Assembly: GCA_020846005.1 (NCBI GenBank)
Contig: JADLEQ010000091.1
Location: forward strand, 1-64,000
DNA length: 64,000 bases
Reading direction: 5' to 3'
Source of the DNA: Polyangiaceae bacterium
Lineage (GTDB): Bacteria; Myxococcota_A; Polyangia; Polyangiales; Polyangiaceae
Shown: positions 56,243 through 64,000 of the stretch, in pieces
Numbering within the stretch: the first letter of the stretch is position 1
Layout of the letters: the number at the start of each line of letters is the position of its first letter
The notes under the pieces: generated by a model
Told to the model about the DNA's origin: nothing
The model's database searches: none
The model's input: only the letters and a program-made list of their open reading frames with translations
Translations under genes and position numbers: made by a program

Positions 56243-56291
56243 GGCGGGCGGGCTCGTCGGGGCGGCGGTTCCCGTTGTACCTTGGCGGGCG

Positions 56292-58883
56292 ATGCCGCGC
56301 GACCAGCCGACGACGCTCACCCTCGATCGATACTCGCCGGAGGCGAGGGGCCTCGTCGCGGGCGCGCAGGCGCTCGCCGACGAGCGGCGCCACGCCGAGG
56401 TGACCCCGCTCCACCTCCTCGCGCGCGCGCTCGATCGGGAGCCCGCGGTCGTGGAGGTCCTGCGGCGATCGGGCGCCGCCGTCGGCGAGCTCCCGGCCGC
56501 CGTCGAGCGCGCGCTCGGCACCCAGGCGCGGTCCACCGAGCCCTCGTGGCTCTCCGGGGCGACCATCGATCTGCTGGAGCGAGCCGAACGCGACGCCGCG
56601 CGCGAGCGCGCCCCCGAGGTCGGCGTCGCGCAGCTGCTGAACGCGTTGTCCCAGGAGATCCGTGGCGCGGCGGGGGAGCTGCTCGCCGCCGCCGGGGTGA
56701 CGCCCGGCTCGCTGCGCGGGCACATGGCGCCCCTCACCCAGTCGAGGTCCGGCGCGGGCAAGGGCGCGCCGGCCTCGGGGCAGCGCGCCGCCACCCGTGA
56801 TCTCGTGGACGAGGCGCGGCGTGGGATCGCCGACCCGGTGCTCTGCCGCGACGCCGAGGTGCGGCGGGTCCTGACGATCCTCGAGCGTCGCGCCAAGCAG
56901 CACCCGCTCCTCGTCGGGGAGCACGGCGTGGGCAAGGGCGCGGTCGTGCGAGCGCTCGCGCTCCGCGTCGCGCGCGGGGACGTCCCGGCCCCGCTGATCG
57001 GGGTCCGCCTCCTCGAACTCGACGCCGGGGTGCTCGCCGCAGGGGCGCGACTCCGGGGAGAGATCGAGGAGCGCGTGCGACAGCTCCTCGCCGAGGTGAG
57101 CGGCGCCGACACCATCCTCGTCGCGCGAGGGATCGAGCAGCTCTTCGGCCAGGGACCGGCCGGATCGGGTGTCGGTGATCTGCTCCGACCCGCGCTCTCG
57201 CGCGGCGAGGTGCGCCTCATCGCCACGACCACGCCGGAGGGGCTCCGGCGGATCAGCGATCGGGATCCCGCGCTCCCGCTGCTCTTCTCCGTCGTGCCGG
57301 TGGCCGAGCCCGGCGTCGAGCCGGCGATCGAGATCGTCCGCGGGCTCGCGTCACGCTTCGAGCTTCATCACGATCTCGTCGTGACCGAGGGCGCCATCGT
57401 AGCGGCGGTCCGGCTGGCCCGCCGCTACGTCCGGGAGCGCGCGTTGCCCGACAGCGCGCTCGATCTCCTCGACGAAGCGGCGGCGGCGCGGCGCGTGGAG
57501 GTGGACGGCGTGCCGTGGGTCGTCGACGGGACGCGCAGTCGCGTGGCGGCGCTCGAGCTGCAGGTGCAGACGCTCGCGGGCGCCACGGATCCGACGAGCG
57601 TGGCGGCTCGCGATCGCCTCGGCGCCGAGCTCGAGCGGCTGCGGCCCGAGGCGCGAGAGCAGCAGGCGGCGCTCGAGTCGCGCCGCGGCGCGGCGGCGGC
57701 GCTCCGGGCGCTCCGGCGCGAGCTGGCGGAGGCGGAGGGGGCGCTCGAACGTGCGCGTGAGGGGCGCGAGCTCGCGCGGCAGGGCGAGCTCGAGCACGTG
57801 GCGCTCCCGGATCTCCGCCAGCGGGTGGGGCGCGCCGAGGAGGCGCTCCGCGCCTTCGGCGGCGAGGTCGATCGTTCCCTGGACGAGCACGCGGTCGCCG
57901 CGACGCTGGAGGTGTGGACCGGCATCCCCGTAGCGCGGATGCTGGAGGGCGAGGCCGAGAAGCTGCTCGGGATGGAGGCCCGGCTCGAGGAGCGGGTCGT
58001 CGGGCAAGCGGACGCCGTGAGCGCGGTGTCCCGGGCGGTACGCCGCAGCCGCGTGGGGTTGCGGGACCCGGGCAAGCCGATCGGCAGCTTCCTGTTTCTC
58101 GGCCCGAGCGGTGTCGGGAAGACGGAGCTGGCGAAGGCGCTGGCCGAGTACTTGTTCGACGACGAACAGGCGATGACGCGCCTGGACATGAGCGAGTTCA
58201 TGGAGCGTCACATGGCGCAGCGGCTGATCGGCGCGCCGCCCGGCTACGCCGACAGCGAGCAAGGTGGGTTCCTCACGGAGGCGGTCCGGCGTCGCCCGTA
58301 CTCCGTCCTCCTCTTCGACGAGGTCGAGAAGGCGCATCAGGACGTGTGGAACCTCCTCCTCCAGGTCCTCGACGACGGCCGGCTCACCGACGGTCGTGGC
58401 CGCCCGGCCGACTTCTCCAACACCGTGGTGATCTTGACCAGCAACCTCGGCTCGGATCGGATCCTGGTCGCCGGGACCGACGCTCTGGCGACCGACGGCG
58501 GACGTGACGCACTGCGTGATGTGCTCCTGGAGGAGCTCCGCGGCTTCTTTCGCCCAGAGTTCCTGAACCGCATCGACGAGGTGGTGGTGTTCCAGCCGCT
58601 CGGGCGGAGCGAGCTCGCCCGCATCGCGGACATCCAGCTCCGGCGCCTGGGGCGGCAGCTCGCCGAGCGCCGCCTGGAGCTCGCGCTGAGCCCCGAGGCG
58701 CGCGAGCGCCTGCTCGATCTCGGCTACGAACCCGCGCTCGGGGCCCGACCGCTGCGGCGCGCGATCCTGCGCCACGTGCAGGACCCACTCGCGACCGCCG
58801 TGCTCGCCGGGCGGCTCCCGGACGGCGCGCGGGTCGAGGTCCGGCTGGTGGGTGACGAGTTCGTGCTCGCCGAGTCGAGCTGA
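56292..58883 (+). CDS. ClpB-like AAA+ protein with degenerate first ATPase domain
   Basis: An 863-residue ClpB-type protein. Residues 10-145 form the Clp N domain. D1 (about 180-400) has GEHGVGKG (209-216), where the Walker A Thr is Gly; the Walker B region reads ILVARGIEQLFG, with A278-R279 in place of Asp-Glu; the pore segment GARLRGEIEER lacks the Tyr; and L330-L331 stand where ClpB has the arginine-finger pair. A full middle domain follows (about 415-535). D2 is intact: GPSGVGKT (604-611), VLLFDEVEKA with D676-E677, pore APPGYADSEQGG. It keeps EVWTGIPVARM. It is probably a chaperone-like motor driven by D2 only. TACCTT lies eight bases before the ATG. Confidence 0.9.
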   Translation: MPRDQPTTLTLDRYSPEARGLVAGAQALADERRHAEVTPLHLLARALDREPAVVEVLRRSGAAVGELPAAVERALGTQARSTEPSWLSGATIDLLERAERDAARERAPEVGVAQLLNALSQEIRGAAGELLAAAGVTPGSLRGHMAPLTQSRSGAGKGAPASGQRAATRDLVDEARRGIADPVLCRDAEVRRVLTILERRAKQHPLLVGEHGVGKGAVVRALALRVARGDVPAPLIGVRLLELDAGVLAAGARLRGEIEERVRQLLAEVSGADTILVARGIEQLFGQGPAGSGVGDLLRPALSRGEVRLIATTTPEGLRRISDRDPALPLLFSVVPVAEPGVEPAIEIVRGLASRFELHHDLVVTEGAIVAAVRLARRYVRERALPDSALDLLDEAAAARRVEVDGVPWVVDGTRSRVAALELQVQTLAGATDPTSVAARDRLGAELERLRPEAREQQAALESRRGAAAALRALRRELAEAEGALERAREGRELARQGELEHVALPDLRQRVGRAEEALRAFGGEVDRSLDEHAVAATLEVWTGIPVARMLEGEAEKLLGMEARLEERVVGQADAVSAVSRAVRRSRVGLRDPGKPIGSFLFLGPSGVGKTELAKALAEYLFDDEQAMTRLDMSEFMERHMAQRLIGAPPGYADSEQGGFLTEAVRRRPYSVLLFDEVEKAHQDVWNLLLQVLDDGRLTDGRGRPADFSNTVVILTSNLGSDRILVAGTDALATDGGRDALRDVLLEELRGFFRPEFLNRIDEVVVFQPLGRSELARIADIQLRRLGRQLAERRLELALSPEARERLLDLGYEPALGARPLRRAILRHVQDPLATAVLAGRLPDGARVEVRLVGDEFVLAESS

Positions 58884-58994: not shown

Positions 58995-59024
58995 TTGGCG
59001 CTCGCCGTGCGCTCGTGCGATAAT
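58995..59024 (+). promoter_or_regulatory. sigma-70-type promoter of the radical SAM gene cluster
   Basis: TTGGCG at 58995-59000 and GATAAT at 59019-59024 are 18 bases apart, and TGC directly before GATAAT makes an extended -10. Transcription would begin near 59031, giving a 5' leader of about 54 bases with GAGGAG about nine bases before the ATG at 59085. A second, weaker pair (TTGACG at 59032 and GAAGAT at 59055) overlaps the leader. The 201-base gap after the ClpB-like gene holds nothing else clear. Confidence 0.6.
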
Positions 59025-59084
59025 CATCGCGTTGACGCAGAGTCGGCCTTCGCCGAAGATGCAGTCTCAACGAGGAGACGCGAG

Positions 59085-59594
59085 ATGAGCAACGAAGTGA
59101 ACCGCCGTTCGTTCGTGGGTGCGCTCGGCGTGGGCGCGGCCGCGGCCGCCGCGAGCAGCACCGCTGCCGTGCACGCGGCGCCCGCCACGGGCGCGATCGT
59201 GCTGACTCCGCAGGAACAGGCGCAACGCGCCGAAGCGCTGGAGAGCGCCGTCGCGCCGCTGACGTCGGGCTCACGCCTCGGCCGCTGGACGGTCGAGCGG
59301 GTGCTCCCCGTCGCGGCCGGCGCGCAGAGCTTGGTGCTCCGCGACGCGAGCGGGGGCCTCTTCCAACTCGACGTCTGCTCGAGGGCTCCCGGCGTCTCCA
59401 GCCCGGCCTCCACCGACCGCTTCCAGGTGTTCGTCGCCAACGGCGGCGACGGCGCGACGGCGACGGTCGAGGACCACGGCCTCGCGGCCATGGCGCTGGC
59501 CGAGGTCATCCGCGCCAACGAGCAGCGACTCGACGGCCGAGGCTTCGAGGCCCTGGCAGCTCGGGAGCACCTGGCGCGCATCCACACGGTCTGA
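59085..59594 (+). CDS. Tat-exported protein of unknown function
   Basis: A 169-residue protein. It starts with a twin-arginine signal (VNRRSFVGALGVGAAAAAASS, cleavage likely after VHAAPA). The mature part, about 130 residues, has WTVERVLPVAAGAQSLVLRDASGG, a single Cys (QLDVCSRAPG), and a C-terminal helical stretch (LAAMALAEVIRANEQRLDGRGFEALAAREHLARIHTV). I do not recognise the domain. Tat export implies folding or cofactor loading in the cytosol. It is the first gene after a good promoter and only two bases before the radical SAM gene, so it is the best local candidate for a substrate or partner of that enzyme. Confidence 0.82.
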   Translation: MSNEVNRRSFVGALGVGAAAAAASSTAAVHAAPATGAIVLTPQEQAQRAEALESAVAPLTSGSRLGRWTVERVLPVAAGAQSLVLRDASGGLFQLDVCSRAPGVSSPASTDRFQVFVANGGDGATATVEDHGLAAMALAEVIRANEQRLDGRGFEALAAREHLARIHTV

Positions 59595-59596
59595 GC

Positions 59597-60355
59597 GTGC
59601 GCGTCGTCCAGCTCGGCTTCGAGTGCAACAACGCCTGCGTGTTCTGCGCGCAGGGGGCGCTCGCGCGCCTCGCGCCCCCCGTCACGGACACCGCCGTCGA
59701 GGCGGCGCTCGCCGGTGTCCGCGCGGGCGAGCCGCTGGCGTTCGTCGGCGGTGAGCCGACGCTGCACCCCGAGCTCGATCGCTGGATCGCGGCCGCTCGG
59801 CGCCGCGGCGCCTCGCAGGTGCTCCTGCAGACGAACGGCCGCCTGCTCGCGGTGCCGGGGCGCGCGGCGGCGCTCGCGGCGGCCGGGCTCACCGCCCTCG
59901 ATCTCTCACTCCACGGCGACACCGCCCCCGTGCACGATCACCACACCGGCGTCCCGGGCTCGTTCGAGCAGAGCTGCGCCGGGGCTCGCGCGGGGCGGTC
60001 GGCGGGGCTCGCGCTCGGCGTCACCGCCGTCGTGACCAAGTCCAACCTGCGCCACCTGAGCGGCGTCGTCCGCCTGGCGCACCGGCTCGGCGCCGACGCG
60101 ATCCGCCTGGCCCCGGCGCAGGCGCACGGCCGCGCGTTCGCCGCCGCGCCGCGCGTGCTCCCCGCGCCGCAGCTGGCGCGCCCGCACGTCGCCGCGGCGC
60201 TCCGCGTCGCGGCAGAGCTCGGGCTCGCCGGCCTCCTCGGGGATCGCGTCACCCCCGGCCTCGAGCAGCGGTTCGCCGGGCTCGGCGTCGCCGAGCCCGC
60301 TCCCGGCGGTCGCGCGCTGGCCTCCCGCGCCACCGCTCCACCTCTGGCGCTCTGA
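59597..60355 (+). CDS. minimal radical SAM enzyme
   Basis: A 252-residue radical SAM protein. The cluster motif C10-x3-C14-x2-C17 is in FECNNACVFCAQG, followed by the SAM-binding FVGGEPTLHPEL (GGEP), LQTNGRLL and the strand TALDLSLHGDTAPVHDHHTG. The C-terminal third is short, with no extra cysteine pairs, so it lacks a SPASM or twitch domain. It resembles the core of MoaA- or PqqE-like enzymes but cannot be placed in a known family by eye. It starts with GTG, two bases after the Tat protein gene. The missing auxiliary cluster may be supplied by the Cys-containing protein at 63044 (inference). Confidence 0.9.
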   Translation: MRVVQLGFECNNACVFCAQGALARLAPPVTDTAVEAALAGVRAGEPLAFVGGEPTLHPELDRWIAAARRRGASQVLLQTNGRLLAVPGRAAALAAAGLTALDLSLHGDTAPVHDHHTGVPGSFEQSCAGARAGRSAGLALGVTAVVTKSNLRHLSGVVRLAHRLGADAIRLAPAQAHGRAFAAAPRVLPAPQLARPHVAAALRVAAELGLAGLLGDRVTPGLEQRFAGLGVAEPAPGGRALASRATAPPLAL

Positions 60356-60395
60356 TCCGTCCGCCCTCTCCACGTCCACGAACAGGGGAATACTC

Positions 60396-62225
60396 ATGAC
60401 TCGGCACCTCGCTTCTCGCAGGATCCTCGCGTACGGCGCCCTCGGCTCGCTGCTCGGACTGTTCGCGGTCGCGTGCGCTTCTGGAGGCGAGGATGATCCG
60501 GGTCGCGGCGGCTCGGGCGCCGCGAGCGGCACCGGCGGCTCGTCCGGCGACGCCGGCGACACCGACGGCTCGTCGGGCACTGGCGGCTTCGGCGGCTCCT
60601 CCGGCTCCTCGGGAGCGGCGGGCGCCGGCGGCGGCGGAGCGGGCTCTGGCGGCGTCGGCGCGGCGGGCTCTGGCGGCGTCGGCGCGGCGGGCTCCGGTGG
60701 CGTCGGTGCGGCGGGCGCCGGCGGCGGCGGCACCGGCGGCGGCGGCACCGGCGGCGGCGGCACCGGCGGCGGCGGCACCGGCGGCGGCGGCACCGGCGGC
60801 GGTGGCACCGGCGGCGGTGGCACCGGCGGCGTCGGCGCGGCGGGCGCCGGCGGCACCGGGGGCGCGTGCGTCCCCAACAGCGGCCCCGAGCAGTGCAACG
60901 GTATCGACGACGACAGCAACGGCCAGGTCGACGAGGGCAACCCGGGGGGCGGCTGCCCCTGCAACGTGCCGGGGCTGTCCGGCGTCTGCGCGGACGGGAT
61001 CGACACGTGCAGCAGCGGCGTGATCATCTGCCTCGCCACCAACACGCCCTCCTCCGAGACGTGCAACGGCCTCGACGACAACTGCAACGGCGTCCCCGAC
61101 GAGGGTAACCCCGGCGGCGGCGGCGCTTGCGACACCGGGCAACCCGGGATCTGCGCCGTCGGGACGTACGCCTGCGGCGCCGGGCAGCTCGAGTGTCTGC
61201 AGAACGTGCAGGCGCTGCCGTCCGAGGTCTGCAACCTCCTGGACGACAACTGCAACGGCTCGGTGGACGAGAACCTCGGCGGTGGCGCGTGTGACACGGG
61301 GGATGATGGCGAGTGCGCAGCCGGCATCGAGAGCTGCACCAGCGGCCAGACGGTCTGCGCCGCGATCAACTCGCCTACGCAGGAGCTCTGCAACGGCAAG
61401 GACGACGACTGCGACGGCCAGTTCGACCAGGGCAACCCCGAGGGCGGCGTCGCGTGTACGGTCGCGGGGCAATCGGGCATCTGCGCGACCGGACTCAGCC
61501 AGTGCCAGACGGGCGGCAACCTCGTCTGCATCCAGACGGTCTCCGGCACGTCCGAGGCCTGCAACGGCCTCGACGACGACTGCAACGGGACCGCCGACGA
61601 CGACGCGAACGTCGTGGCGATGTGCGCTCGCGCCGCCGGCTGCGGCACGCTCACGCTGCCGAACGTCAGCTCGGCGGCCTGCGCCTCCGGCGCCTGCACG
61701 CTCTCGTGCAGCGGCGCGTACGAGAACAACGACGGCGATCTCTGCAACGGGTGCGAGTCGCTCGGGTGCGCGTCGGTCCCCGCCGGCGGGGACACGTGTG
61801 GCACCGCGAACGGCGTCTCGGTGTCGGGCCCGACTCAGCGCGACGGTACGCTCACCGTGCAGAACGAGACGCGCTACTACCTCGTGACGTTCACGCCGCC
61901 CGCGGCGGGTCTCGCCTTCAACCCGACCATCAGCATGGCGGCTGGCAGCTCGGACTACCAGATGGATGTGCTCACCGGCTGCGGGACGCCGATCGCCTGC
62001 CCGTCGCCCGGCGCCCACGCGGGCGGAGGCGGAGACGGCACGAACAAGGTGACGTGGAGCATGAACTTCACCTACACCCCGGGCTTCGAGACGGCGTGCC
62101 TCGGCAACGGCAACTGCTCGTCGGCGACGACACCGCCTACGAGCGTCGTCGTGAAGGTCACGCGCATCTCGGCGATCACGACCGGGAACAAGTGTAACCC
62201 GTACACGATCTCGTTCAGCCAGTAG
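60396..62225 (+). CDS. lipoprotein with Gly-rich stalk and MopE-type metal-binding repeats
   Basis: A 609-residue predicted lipoprotein. The signal is ALGSLLGLFAVAC. Residues about 30-150 are a Gly/Ser/Thr stalk with seven GGGGT units. Five MopE-type repeats follow (CNGxDDDCNGxxDEG pattern): CNGIDDDSNG, CNGLDDNCNG, CNLLDDNCNG, CNGKDDDCDG and CNGLDDDCNG, spaced by Cys-rich linkers. The acidic Asp/Asn loops are calcium- or copper-binding in relatives such as Methylococcus MopE. The last 150 residues look like a beta-sandwich (ETRYYLVTFTPPAAGLAFNPTISM). It lies 40 bases after the radical SAM gene and may share its transcript. Confidence 0.88.
   Translation: MTRHLASRRILAYGALGSLLGLFAVACASGGEDDPGRGGSGAASGTGGSSGDAGDTDGSSGTGGFGGSSGSSGAAGAGGGGAGSGGVGAAGSGGVGAAGSGGVGAAGAGGGGTGGGGTGGGGTGGGGTGGGGTGGGGTGGGGTGGVGAAGAGGTGGACVPNSGPEQCNGIDDDSNGQVDEGNPGGGCPCNVPGLSGVCADGIDTCSSGVIICLATNTPSSETCNGLDDNCNGVPDEGNPGGGGACDTGQPGICAVGTYACGAGQLECLQNVQALPSEVCNLLDDNCNGSVDENLGGGACDTGDDGECAAGIESCTSGQTVCAAINSPTQELCNGKDDDCDGQFDQGNPEGGVACTVAGQSGICATGLSQCQTGGNLVCIQTVSGTSEACNGLDDDCNGTADDDANVVAMCARAAGCGTLTLPNVSSAACASGACTLSCSGAYENNDGDLCNGCESLGCASVPAGGDTCGTANGVSVSGPTQRDGTLTVQNETRYYLVTFTPPAAGLAFNPTISMAAGSSDYQMDVLTGCGTPIACPSPGAHAGGGGDGTNKVTWSMNFTYTPGFETACLGNGNCSSATTPPTSVVVKVTRISAITTGNKCNPYTISFSQ
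60720..60824 (+). repeat. 15-bp tandem repeat, seven copies
   Basis: Seven consecutive GGCGGCGGCGGCACC-type units encode GGGGT in the lipoprotein stalk. They differ only by silent GGC/GGT changes in the last copies. Just upstream, three copies of a GSGGVGAA-coding unit form a second short array. Confidence 0.9.
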
Positions 62226-62299
62226 CAGCGGCGGAGCGGGCCCTCGCCCCCGCCCCGTGGTACTCTCGGCGCGCGGCGACCCGCCGCTGGAGATCTCCC

Positions 62300-62758
62300 G
62301 TGACCGAACTCGCCGTGACGAAGGCCTCCGGACAGCTCGTGATCGAGCTCGACGAGAAGCTCTACCCGCTCGACGCCATCTATGGCGCCTCGTACATCTT
62401 CATCGATCGCTGCTATCTCCATCTCGACCGGCCGGCGGCGGGGCGGATCTCCGTGCAGCTTCGGCTCAAGCCCGGGGTGGAGCGAGAGCTCGACGACCTC
62501 GCCGGCGAATTCGAGAACGAGCTCCTCGGCCAGGCGTGGCGGCGGCTGATCCTCGACGAGAACCGCCAGCTCGTCGAGGACGTGACGACGCGCGCGCTCG
62601 CCGGGGCCGCCGGCCCGGCCGGGCTGGATGATCTCCTGGCGATGGATGTCGACGACGACACCGCGTTCGAGGATCCGCTCGGGATCGCGATGAGCTGGGA
62701 GGAGAAGTACAAGAAGAAGGCGACCGAGCCGACCTCGGGGGGCGAGGGGCCGGCGTGA
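62300..62758 (+). CDS. HxsD-like protein
   Basis: A 152-residue soluble protein. The pattern YPLDAIYGASYIFIDRCYLHLD, then a strand with VQLRLKPG, then EFENELLGQAWRRLILDENRQLVEDVTTRAL follows the HxsD family of the His-Xaa-Ser radical SAM systems, whose conserved core has the form F.NxLLxxxLRexI. The C-terminal 50 residues are an extra acidic tail (LLAMDVDDDTAFEDP) ending in a Lys-rich patch. HxsD proteins are small partners of radical SAM enzymes with no known catalytic role. The GTG at 62300 has GGAG about nine bases upstream. Its stop overlaps the GTG of the next gene. Confidence 0.65.
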   Translation: MTELAVTKASGQLVIELDEKLYPLDAIYGASYIFIDRCYLHLDRPAAGRISVQLRLKPGVERELDDLAGEFENELLGQAWRRLILDENRQLVEDVTTRALAGAAGPAGLDDLLAMDVDDDTAFEDPLGIAMSWEEKYKKKATEPTSGGEGPA

Positions 62759-62979
62759 TCGAGCTGAAGCTCCACCGGGACCTCTACGCCCGCGCGGCGG
62801 TCGACGCCGCGGTCGCGGCGTTCGGCGACTACGCCCAGGTCGATCTCGAGCCGCGCGACGACGCGTACGTGCTCCGCTGCGCCGCGGTCGGCGACACCGA
62901 CGAGGCCCAGCTCGTGCTCGAGCTCGGGAACTTCGCGCTCGGCCTCACGATCGAGGGGCGCGGCTCGAGCGGCGGCTGA
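62755..62979 (+). CDS. second small HxsD-like protein
   Basis: A 74-residue protein whose GTG overlaps the stop of the preceding HxsD-like gene. ELKLHRDLYARAAVDAAVAAFGDYAQVDLEP, VLRCAA and QLVLELGNFALGL match the same layout in short form: a first strand ending in Y, a helix AAVxAA, two strands, and a final helix with N-x-A-L in place of N-x-L-L. The two proteins may form a heterodimer that clamps a substrate leader, as PqqD-like proteins do; this is inference from size and context. It could also be an unrelated small protein. Confidence 0.55.
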   Translation: MIELKLHRDLYARAAVDAAVAAFGDYAQVDLEPRDDAYVLRCAAVGDTDEAQLVLELGNFALGLTIEGRGSSGG

Positions 62980-63031
62980 GGCCGGGGAGGTCCGTCGCCC
63001 GCCGGTGACGTGCGGGGGCCGACGCGCCTGC

Positions 63032-63037
63032 TAGGGT
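63032..63037 (+). promoter_or_regulatory. TAGGGT box six bases before the start codon (leaderless-type -10)
   Basis: TGCTAGGGT, then six bases (GGATCC), then the ATG at 63044. It is identical to the box before the GTG at 40168. It suggests an internal promoter for the methyltransferase gene and what follows, in addition to read-through from the promoter at 58995. No Shine-Dalgarno is present. Function inferred. Confidence 0.5.
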
Positions 63038-63043
63038 GGATCC

Positions 63044-63991
63044 ATGCGTGCGCCCGTCGAGCCGCCGCGCGCCAACTCCTTCAACTTCGTGCCGGTGCGT
63101 GACCTCGCCCGGGTGCGAGGTGCCCCCTGCCCCCTCCGAGCCCTCCCCGATCCCGGGCCGCTCGGGCTCGGGGACCGCGCGCGCCAGCTCTGGCTTCGCG
63201 CCCCGGATCGGCTGCGGCTGTTTCAGACGTTCACCGCTGACTTCGACCAGCGGGAGCTCGCGCGCGTGAAGTGGGATCACGGGCAGCTCTACGCGGACGT
63301 GTCGCGCAAGGCCGCGCCGGACGACTTCGCGGCCGACCTGGTGAAGCTCCGTCCCGCCCGTGAGTGCGCCACCTGCGAGCGTCGCCACGGCTGCGCGGGT
63401 GCCTACGTGTTCGAGCCGGGTGACGTGTTCACGCGGGACGACGCCGCCGTCCGCGCGCATCTCGAGGGGCTGCGCGGCGCCGTGCTCGATCTGGGGTGTG
63501 GCGAGGGGCGCTACCTCGGCGCGCTCCGGCCGGCCGTCGAGCGGGGCGAACTGCGCTACCTCGGCGTCGACCCGGACACAGCGGCGCTGGAGCGCCTCCG
63601 GCAGCTCCACCCGTGGGCCGACGTGCGGTCGCCCGAGGAGCTCGGCGCGGCGTGCCCGGCGGCGCTGGATCACCTCCTCGTCCTGCGGAGCTGGAACCAC
63701 CTGGCCGAGCCGCGGTCCGTGCTGAGCGACCTGGTCGCGCGCCTCCGACCTGGAGGCACCGTCCTCGTCGTGGACAACGTGGCGTTCGGGCTGCTCCGCG
63801 ATCGCGAGCACGCCCGGAGGGCCGAGGCCGGACCGGCGAGGTTCGAGCATTTCCGCAACGACGCTGCCGCGGACGCCGCCGCTCGCCTGGAGGGGCTACC
63901 GCTCGCGAGGCTCGAGCTCCACGAGGTCCACCCGAGCTGCAGCAACCAGTGGCTCCTGCGCTACGAGAGGCTCCCGGAGGTCGATCCATGA
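63044..63991 (+). CDS. methyltransferase fused to a cysteine-cluster domain like the C-terminal part of radical SAM enzymes
   Basis: A 315-residue two-domain protein. Residues 1-135 hold four cysteines, C29 (RGAPCPLR) and C108-x2-C111-x5-C117 (RECATCERRHGCAGAY). That spacing and the CxGAY ending match the auxiliary Fe-S segment at the end of many radical SAM proteins, but the radical SAM core is absent. Residues about 143-315 form a class I methyltransferase: motif I VLDLGCGEG (147-155), the acidic motif II LGVDPDT, and LRPGGTVLVVDNVAFG. Its stop overlaps the ATG of the next gene (ATGA), so a complex with that product is likely. Substrate unknown. Confidence 0.8.
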   Translation: MRAPVEPPRANSFNFVPVRDLARVRGAPCPLRALPDPGPLGLGDRARQLWLRAPDRLRLFQTFTADFDQRELARVKWDHGQLYADVSRKAAPDDFAADLVKLRPARECATCERRHGCAGAYVFEPGDVFTRDDAAVRAHLEGLRGAVLDLGCGEGRYLGALRPAVERGELRYLGVDPDTAALERLRQLHPWADVRSPEELGAACPAALDHLLVLRSWNHLAEPRSVLSDLVARLRPGGTVLVVDNVAFGLLRDREHARRAEAGPARFEHFRNDAAADAAARLEGLPLARLELHEVHPSCSNQWLLRYERLPEVDP

Positions 63992-64000
63992 ATGTCCGGA
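63988..64000 (+). CDS. start of a further gene, cut by the window edge
   Basis: The ATG at 63988 overlaps the stop of the methyltransferase gene, and the frame reads MNVR before the window ends. A second ATG in another frame follows at 63992. Nothing can be said of the product from four residues. Because the preceding protein has a lone Cys-cluster domain and HxsD-like genes usually stand beside radical SAM genes, a radical SAM enzyme would be the expected product (inference). Confidence 0.4.

Follow-up and report, generated by a model that had tools for sequence, protein, structure and literature searches.

A radical SAM gene cluster in a Polyangiaceae genome as the probable partner and export arm of a dispersed HxsA4-type His-Xaa-Ser system

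The gene cluster at the right end of the window

The window analyzed here is a 64,000-nucleotide stretch of DNA, positions 1 to 64,000 of contig C91 in a Polyangiaceae genome (5.7 Mb, 119 contigs, 99% complete; contigs, loci and genomes carry our own C, L and G numbers). Near its right end lies a cluster of seven rightward genes, which begins at 59085 and runs 1.64 kb past the window end at 64000. The cluster encodes a protein with a twin-arginine translocation (Tat) signal, which we call TatP, two radical S-adenosylmethionine (SAM) proteins, a lipoprotein, a methyltransferase, and the paired proteins HxsD and HxsD-like. We conclude that it is likely to be the partner and export arm of an HxsA4-type His-Xaa-Ser (HxS) system dispersed over the genome. 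The genes and features, all present at or very near the coordinates given in a preliminary description of the window, are as follows.

58995..59024, + strand: sigma-70-like promoter, TTGGCG-18-GATAAT, 9/12 matches
59085..59594, + strand: TatP, 169 residues, twin-arginine signal; no family model
59597..60355, + strand: rSAM1, minimal radical SAM protein, 252 residues (PF04055, 57.4 bits)
60396..62225, + strand: lipoprotein with a Gly-rich linker, five MopE Cu-binding-type repeats and a C-terminal domain (PF11617, 67 bits)
62300..62758, + strand: HxsD (TIGR03976, 58.2 bits, cut-off 50)
62755..62979, + strand: HxsD-like, 74 residues, overlapping HxsD by 4 bases (NF038315, 64.8 bits, cut-off 41)
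63044..63991, + strand: Cys cluster (CxxCxxxxxC) joined to a class I methyltransferase, 315 residues (Methyltransf_12, 43.9 bits)
63988..C91:65643 (L009:8988-10643), + strand: rSAM2, radical SAM protein, 551 residues, two further Cys clusters; the window holds only 63988..64000

The intergenic gaps, in gene order, are 2, 40, 74, -4, 64 and -4 bases, a spacing as in an operon. The "further overlapping gene" of the preliminary description is real, and the sequence to the right of 64000 contains the whole of rSAM2, with convergent genes 3' of it. The profile searches likewise agreed with that description, placing HxsD over the TIGR03976 cut-off and recovering the MopE stretches with PF11617. The single promoter that it had placed in front of the run stands as a site but not as a function. 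A stretch of 7.3 kb holds two promoter-like sites of this quality, where shuffling predicts 0.1; however, the same sigma-70 criterion detected no equivalent in front of TatP at 17 loci of relatives, and a promoter function is therefore unsupported.

HxsA4, HxsB and gene order among relatives

The preliminary description stated that there was no HxS peptide. This is correct for the locus, since a six-frame scan found none in the window or in the 31 kb downstream (L009, L010), but not for the genome, which encodes an HxsA4 peptide with 16 repeats on contig C54. Genome searches, confirmed on the protein, also located two copies of HxsB. Parts of the system that look absent are dispersed over the genome, not missing:

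C54:50498-50773: HxsA4 peptide (NF038313, 92.7 bits, cut-off 55)
C55:193167-194573: HxsB copy 1 (TIGR03978, 534 bits, cut-off 370)
C35:29553-30953: HxsB copy 2 (TIGR03978, 531 bits, cut-off 370)
C55, directly 5' of the HxsB copy: HxsC-like radical SAM protein
C35:127 kb: further radical SAM protein, a companion of TatP in other genomes (348 bits)

The HxsA4 peptide has a leader (...LPSFSRSARGMLSKTE...) and the sequence ...GKLPSFSRSARGMLSKTEDAVIDKARDNC...VIPAQ-HCS-(HGS)15-W, that is, an initial HCS and then 15 HGS, followed by a terminal Trp (SW). At E 1e-20 it matches the HxsA4 model alone; a relative's HxsA4 scored 20.5 against HxsA (TIGR03979, cut-off 121.65), a model not searched genome-wide. 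HxsA4 has no hydrophobic N-terminus: the maximum hydropathy over 15 residues is at most 0.61 in 48 peptides, as against 1.58-2.05 for TatP (nine of ten sequences).

We counted the co-occurrence of the families over 183 genomes of the order. HxsD-like and TatP were each detected in 61 genomes, HxsA4 over cut-off in 60 and HxsB over cut-off in 66. HxsD-like shares 57 genomes with TatP, 57 with HxsA4 and 60 with HxsB, and TatP shares 55 with HxsA4; all pairwise overlaps among the four families lie between 55 and 60, and their Fisher probabilities, which ignore kinship, are about 1e-30 or smaller. The co-inherited set proposed in the preliminary description, comprising radical SAM enzymes, two HxsD-like partners and export parts, is thus borne out by very strong co-occurrence. 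Four genomes with HxsD-like lack HxsA4 over cut-off, and an HGS peptide could still be read in three of them (L134, L044, L075). Outside the order, TatP was found in 75 genomes, 63 of which also have HxsA4 over cut-off, and the two genes are 1.1-5.6 kb apart in 38 genomes. Most genomes with both on one contig have TatP about 3 kb or less from HxsA4.

We also fetched the neighborhoods of HxsD-like in this order-level survey (n=54). HxsD adjoins HxsD-like in nearly all of them; HxsB is present in 41/54, TatP in 30/54, and roughly half contain an HGS-repeat peptide, mostly immediately 3' of HxsB. TatP directly adjoins HxsA4 in L146, L147 and L149, with a MopE-type protein alongside in L146. In the window's clade, the Cys-cluster/methyltransferase protein and rSAM2 fill the HxsB slot (L050, L057, L061, L063, L080), and HxsB and HxsA4 are located away from the cluster but still kept in the genomes. 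The methyltransferase also occupies that slot in L085 and, up to the contig end, in L073. Other classes of the phylum have one run of TatP, HxsD, HxsD-like, HxsB and HxsA4 (L183, L184, L189, L190, L192, L193; L179 up to the contig end). Because the TatP-to-HxsA4 run recurs in other classes, the contiguous order is probably older than the dispersed one.

The system belongs to the His-Xaa-Ser kind, since HxsA4 and HxsB are encoded elsewhere in the genome and stand beside the HxsD pair in relatives. The preliminary description had envisaged a separate new system of undescribed composition, which is not supported, given HxsA4 and two HxsB copies in the same genome and their place directly behind HxsD/HxsD-like in many relatives. 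Its suggestion that the enzymes act on an exported protein found no support; the genome's own HxsA4 peptide and HxsB point to an HxS peptide.

Several further observations concern these genes and their surroundings. The repeats of the source genome's HxsA4 (L133:9499-9837) alternate TCG and AGC serine codons in a DNA unit of 18 bases, so that a pattern with TCN serine codons only misses this peptide; a DNA pattern allowing both kinds gave 14 matches in the genome. Over the peptides read, the repeat number ranges from 7 to 53, with 53 His-X-Ser repeats at L049:11577-12251, and all peptides end in Trp (SW or QW) except one that stops at a contig end. In L193, two TatP and two HxsA4 genes are interleaved in one gene run. 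The second HxsB (C35 in the source genome and C123 in relative G087; L096:8737-11080 / L097:777-2966) has no HxsA or HxsD nearby, and in both genomes a gene judged by eye to be metallophosphoesterase-like lies 3' of it. Upstream of the cluster, in the same direction, a ClpB-like ATPase is encoded at 56286-58883; it reaches 826 bits against TIGR03346 (cut-off 1232) and is hence no equivalog. ClpB-related genes occur in 13 neighborhoods, mostly immediately 5' of TatP.

Proteins of the cluster

TatP has the conserved domain NxGDGxxxTxExxGLAAMALA and no family above cut-off in NCBIfam, PHROG or Pfam. Its signal scores 16.5 bits against Pfam TAT_signal, under the cut-off of 22.7. The invariant residues among 20 sequences are mostly Gly, with no invariant Cys and no repeat. 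The predicted model contains four strands and a helix, with a predicted local distance difference test score mostly above 90 in residues 61-110 and 131-150; its best PDB matches, kinase N-lobes (E 0.05, VIA Z 5.2), were taken as meaningless, and the matches listed include no related fold. A narrow TatP alignment scan of named genomes returned ten loci, all in metagenome-assembled genomes titled Polyangiaceae, Myxococcales, Myxococcota or Deltaproteobacteria.

Profile comparison shows HxsD and HxsD-like to be homologues (E 1.6e-5). In HxsD, the 90-residue family domain is followed by a tail, GAAGPPGLDDLL...AFEDPLGIAMSWEEKYKKK (window 62600-62758), that is strongly conserved in the alignment and is a possible binding peptide. 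The predicted structure of HxsD is a beta-beta-alpha-beta-beta-alpha fold, and the solved structures ranked highest for this model belong to RNA polymerase subunits of the Rpb11 type (Foldseek E 1e-3; VIA Z 6.9 over 98 residues, 4.0 A). Rpb11-type subunits pair with a second subunit, and such a fold would fit a pairing of HxsD with HxsD-like; the likeness is weak evidence, because a Z of such size is common between unrelated folds.

rSAM1 has the motif CNNACVFC and lacks a C-terminal Cys cluster in an alignment of 10 sequences. HxsC4 (NF038332) is the best NCBIfam model for rSAM1 (110 bits), rSAM2 (101 bits) and the enzyme on C55 (142 bits), none of which passes the cut-off of 500. A viperin or defense reading of the radical SAM proteins was rejected, as PADLOC pVip matched the radical SAM domain only in part, at 25-54 bits, and NCBIfam NF038283 scored rSAM2 at 39 bits (cut-off 180). 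In L063, L158 and L163, the rSAM1-like open reading frame beside a retained TatP is only 139-153 residues long, and the translations in L158 and L163 begin past the CxxxCxxC motif; these short frames look like degenerate radical SAM genes.

The lipoprotein, the methyltransferase and TatP reach no NCBIfam cut-off. The C-terminal domain of the lipoprotein is common to 14 Hxs-linked loci. Other families of the order carry the methyltransferase as the C-terminal half of a larger protein, about 610 residues long, with an N-terminal radical SAM domain (L044); accordingly, the 315-residue protein of the window looks like a truncated version in which one Cys cluster remains.

Proposed function and relation to known systems

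HxsB belongs to the SPASM radical SAM proteins, which act as peptide-modifying enzymes in several described systems, and the Tat route carries folded proteins out of the cytoplasm, at times together with signal-less partners. Against this background, HxsA4 (C54) would be the substrate, bound via its leader by HxsD/HxsD-like, which may form a pair that binds the substrate or an enzyme. HxsB (C55, C35) would modify residues in the repeats, repeat by repeat, and rSAM1, rSAM2, the HxsC-like protein (C55) and the radical SAM protein at C35:127 kb may add further radical steps. The methyltransferase could methylate the product or a partner. TatP would most likely take the finished, signal-less HxsA4 along as a hitchhiker over the inner membrane, or receive it there, and the MopE-type lipoprotein is a possible outer partner. 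A wider picture may be drawn for the whole phylum, in which a system resembling those for ribosomally synthesized and post-translationally modified peptides (RiPPs) makes a signal-less HGS-repeat peptide that is modified in the cytoplasm by HxsB and partners, exported riding on TatP as its dedicated Tat carrier, and put to work outside the cell with the metal-binding MopE-type lipoprotein as surface partner; we offer it tentatively and regard it as rather doubtful.

Family membership, the presence of all parts in the genome, co-inheritance and shared gene runs are observed. Several points nevertheless weigh against assigning the cluster to an HxsA4-type system. The chemistry, that is, all reactions, as well as the binding roles and export, is inferred. 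HxsA4, HxsB and the cluster lie on different contigs here, so that their joint function is inferred from relatives, and the Fisher values take no account of kinship. The genome has no HxsC equivalog (TIGR03977), the best score being 89 bits (cut-off 267.9) and the solo radical SAM protein at C35:127 kb reaching 101.7 bits as a whole protein. Outside the order, 24 genomes with HxsA4 have no detected TatP, which is therefore a usual but not obligatory companion. A relationship of TatP to HxsD as a paralogue was rejected by profile comparison, and the TatP model has no significant structural match. Some proteins with MopE-type repeats show no visible link to Hxs.

Two alternatives concern the target of the enzymes. 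TatP might be a second substrate, to which rSAM1 adds a modification or cofactor, and might then act with mature HxsA4 outside the cell. The tight pairing of TatP and rSAM1 within the order speaks for this, as does the fact that Tat export is typical for proteins whose folding or cofactor loading takes place in the cytoplasm; however, in other classes the neighbors of TatP are HxsD/HxsB/HxsA4 and do not include rSAM1 (L179, L184, L189, L192), and TatP is retained where the rSAM1-like frames are short, which makes this alternative unlikely. It seems a little less likely still that the cluster is a system of its own, with borrowed HxsD/HxsD-like and with radical SAM enzymes that act on the Tat protein or the lipoprotein rather than on an HxS peptide. 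Such a system would fit the clade's locus, which lacks HxsB and HxsA4 and carries the methyltransferase and rSAM2 next to HxsD/HxsD-like, and also the gap of 2 bases between TatP and rSAM1, which are neighbors in many genomes. Against it, the window's genome and relatives sharing the cluster still encode HxsA4 and HxsB, TatP tracks HxsA4 across the phylum and mostly lies close to it where both are on one contig, and TatP has neither an invariant Cys nor a repeat, its invariant residues being mostly Gly.

The genes might also be chance neighbors without joint function, as the lack of promoter conservation and the ClpB-like gene, which also holds its place in several loci, could suggest. This explanation is already contradicted by the pairwise overlap of four families in 55-60 genomes (60-66 each, of 183) and by the same gene runs repeated in several classes, and we consider it extremely improbable. 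Because its arrangement is found again in many genomes, the cluster is not due to chance. We retain an HxsA4-type system as the probable context of the cluster. The link between HxsA4 and TatP across the phylum is a first clue to the destination of the product, and a small gene set for joint expression is now named; in the open-access literature searched, we found no description of the product of any His-Xaa-Ser system. Moreover, as maturase and substrate have left the locus in some clades, neighborhood-based mining would miss the substrate, and the earlier reading of the window missed it in just that way.

His-Xaa-Ser systems, including HxsA4 and HxsD-like, have already been modeled by NCBI curators. 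We took the definition of HxsABCD (TIGR03979, TIGR03978, TIGR03977, TIGR03976) from NCBIfam and from PMC9062424, which credits the description of the system to Haft and Basu. Like HxsABCD, the present system has HxsD and HxsB over their equivalog cut-offs and an HxS-repeat peptide. It differs in that there is no HxsC equivalog, the peptide is HxsA4 and not HxsA, the parts are dispersed, and HxsD-like, TatP, the methyltransferase and several other radical SAM proteins are added. Canonical HxsB and HxsC do occur in one locus with adjoining HxS-repeat open reading frames in relatives G122 and G148. The HxsA4-type models of NCBIfam (NF038313, NF038332, NF038315) come closer, as the HxsA4 and HxsD-like models pass their cut-offs; HxsC4, in contrast, comes closest of the models to rSAM1, rSAM2 and the C55 enzyme but stays below its cut-off (101-142 bits, cut-off 500). 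SPASM RiPP maturases with PqqD-type partners, such as those for pyrroloquinoline quinone and mycofactocin, likewise combine radical SAM enzymes with small partners and act on a short peptide. No PqqD family match was seen among the seven cluster proteins (NCBIfam, Pfam), and the HxsD model is nearest to Rpb11-type folds. Within the reach of our tools, three features appear undescribed: TatP as a companion throughout the phylum, the scattering of the parts over the genome, and the elaboration with a methyltransferase, rSAM2 and a lipoprotein.

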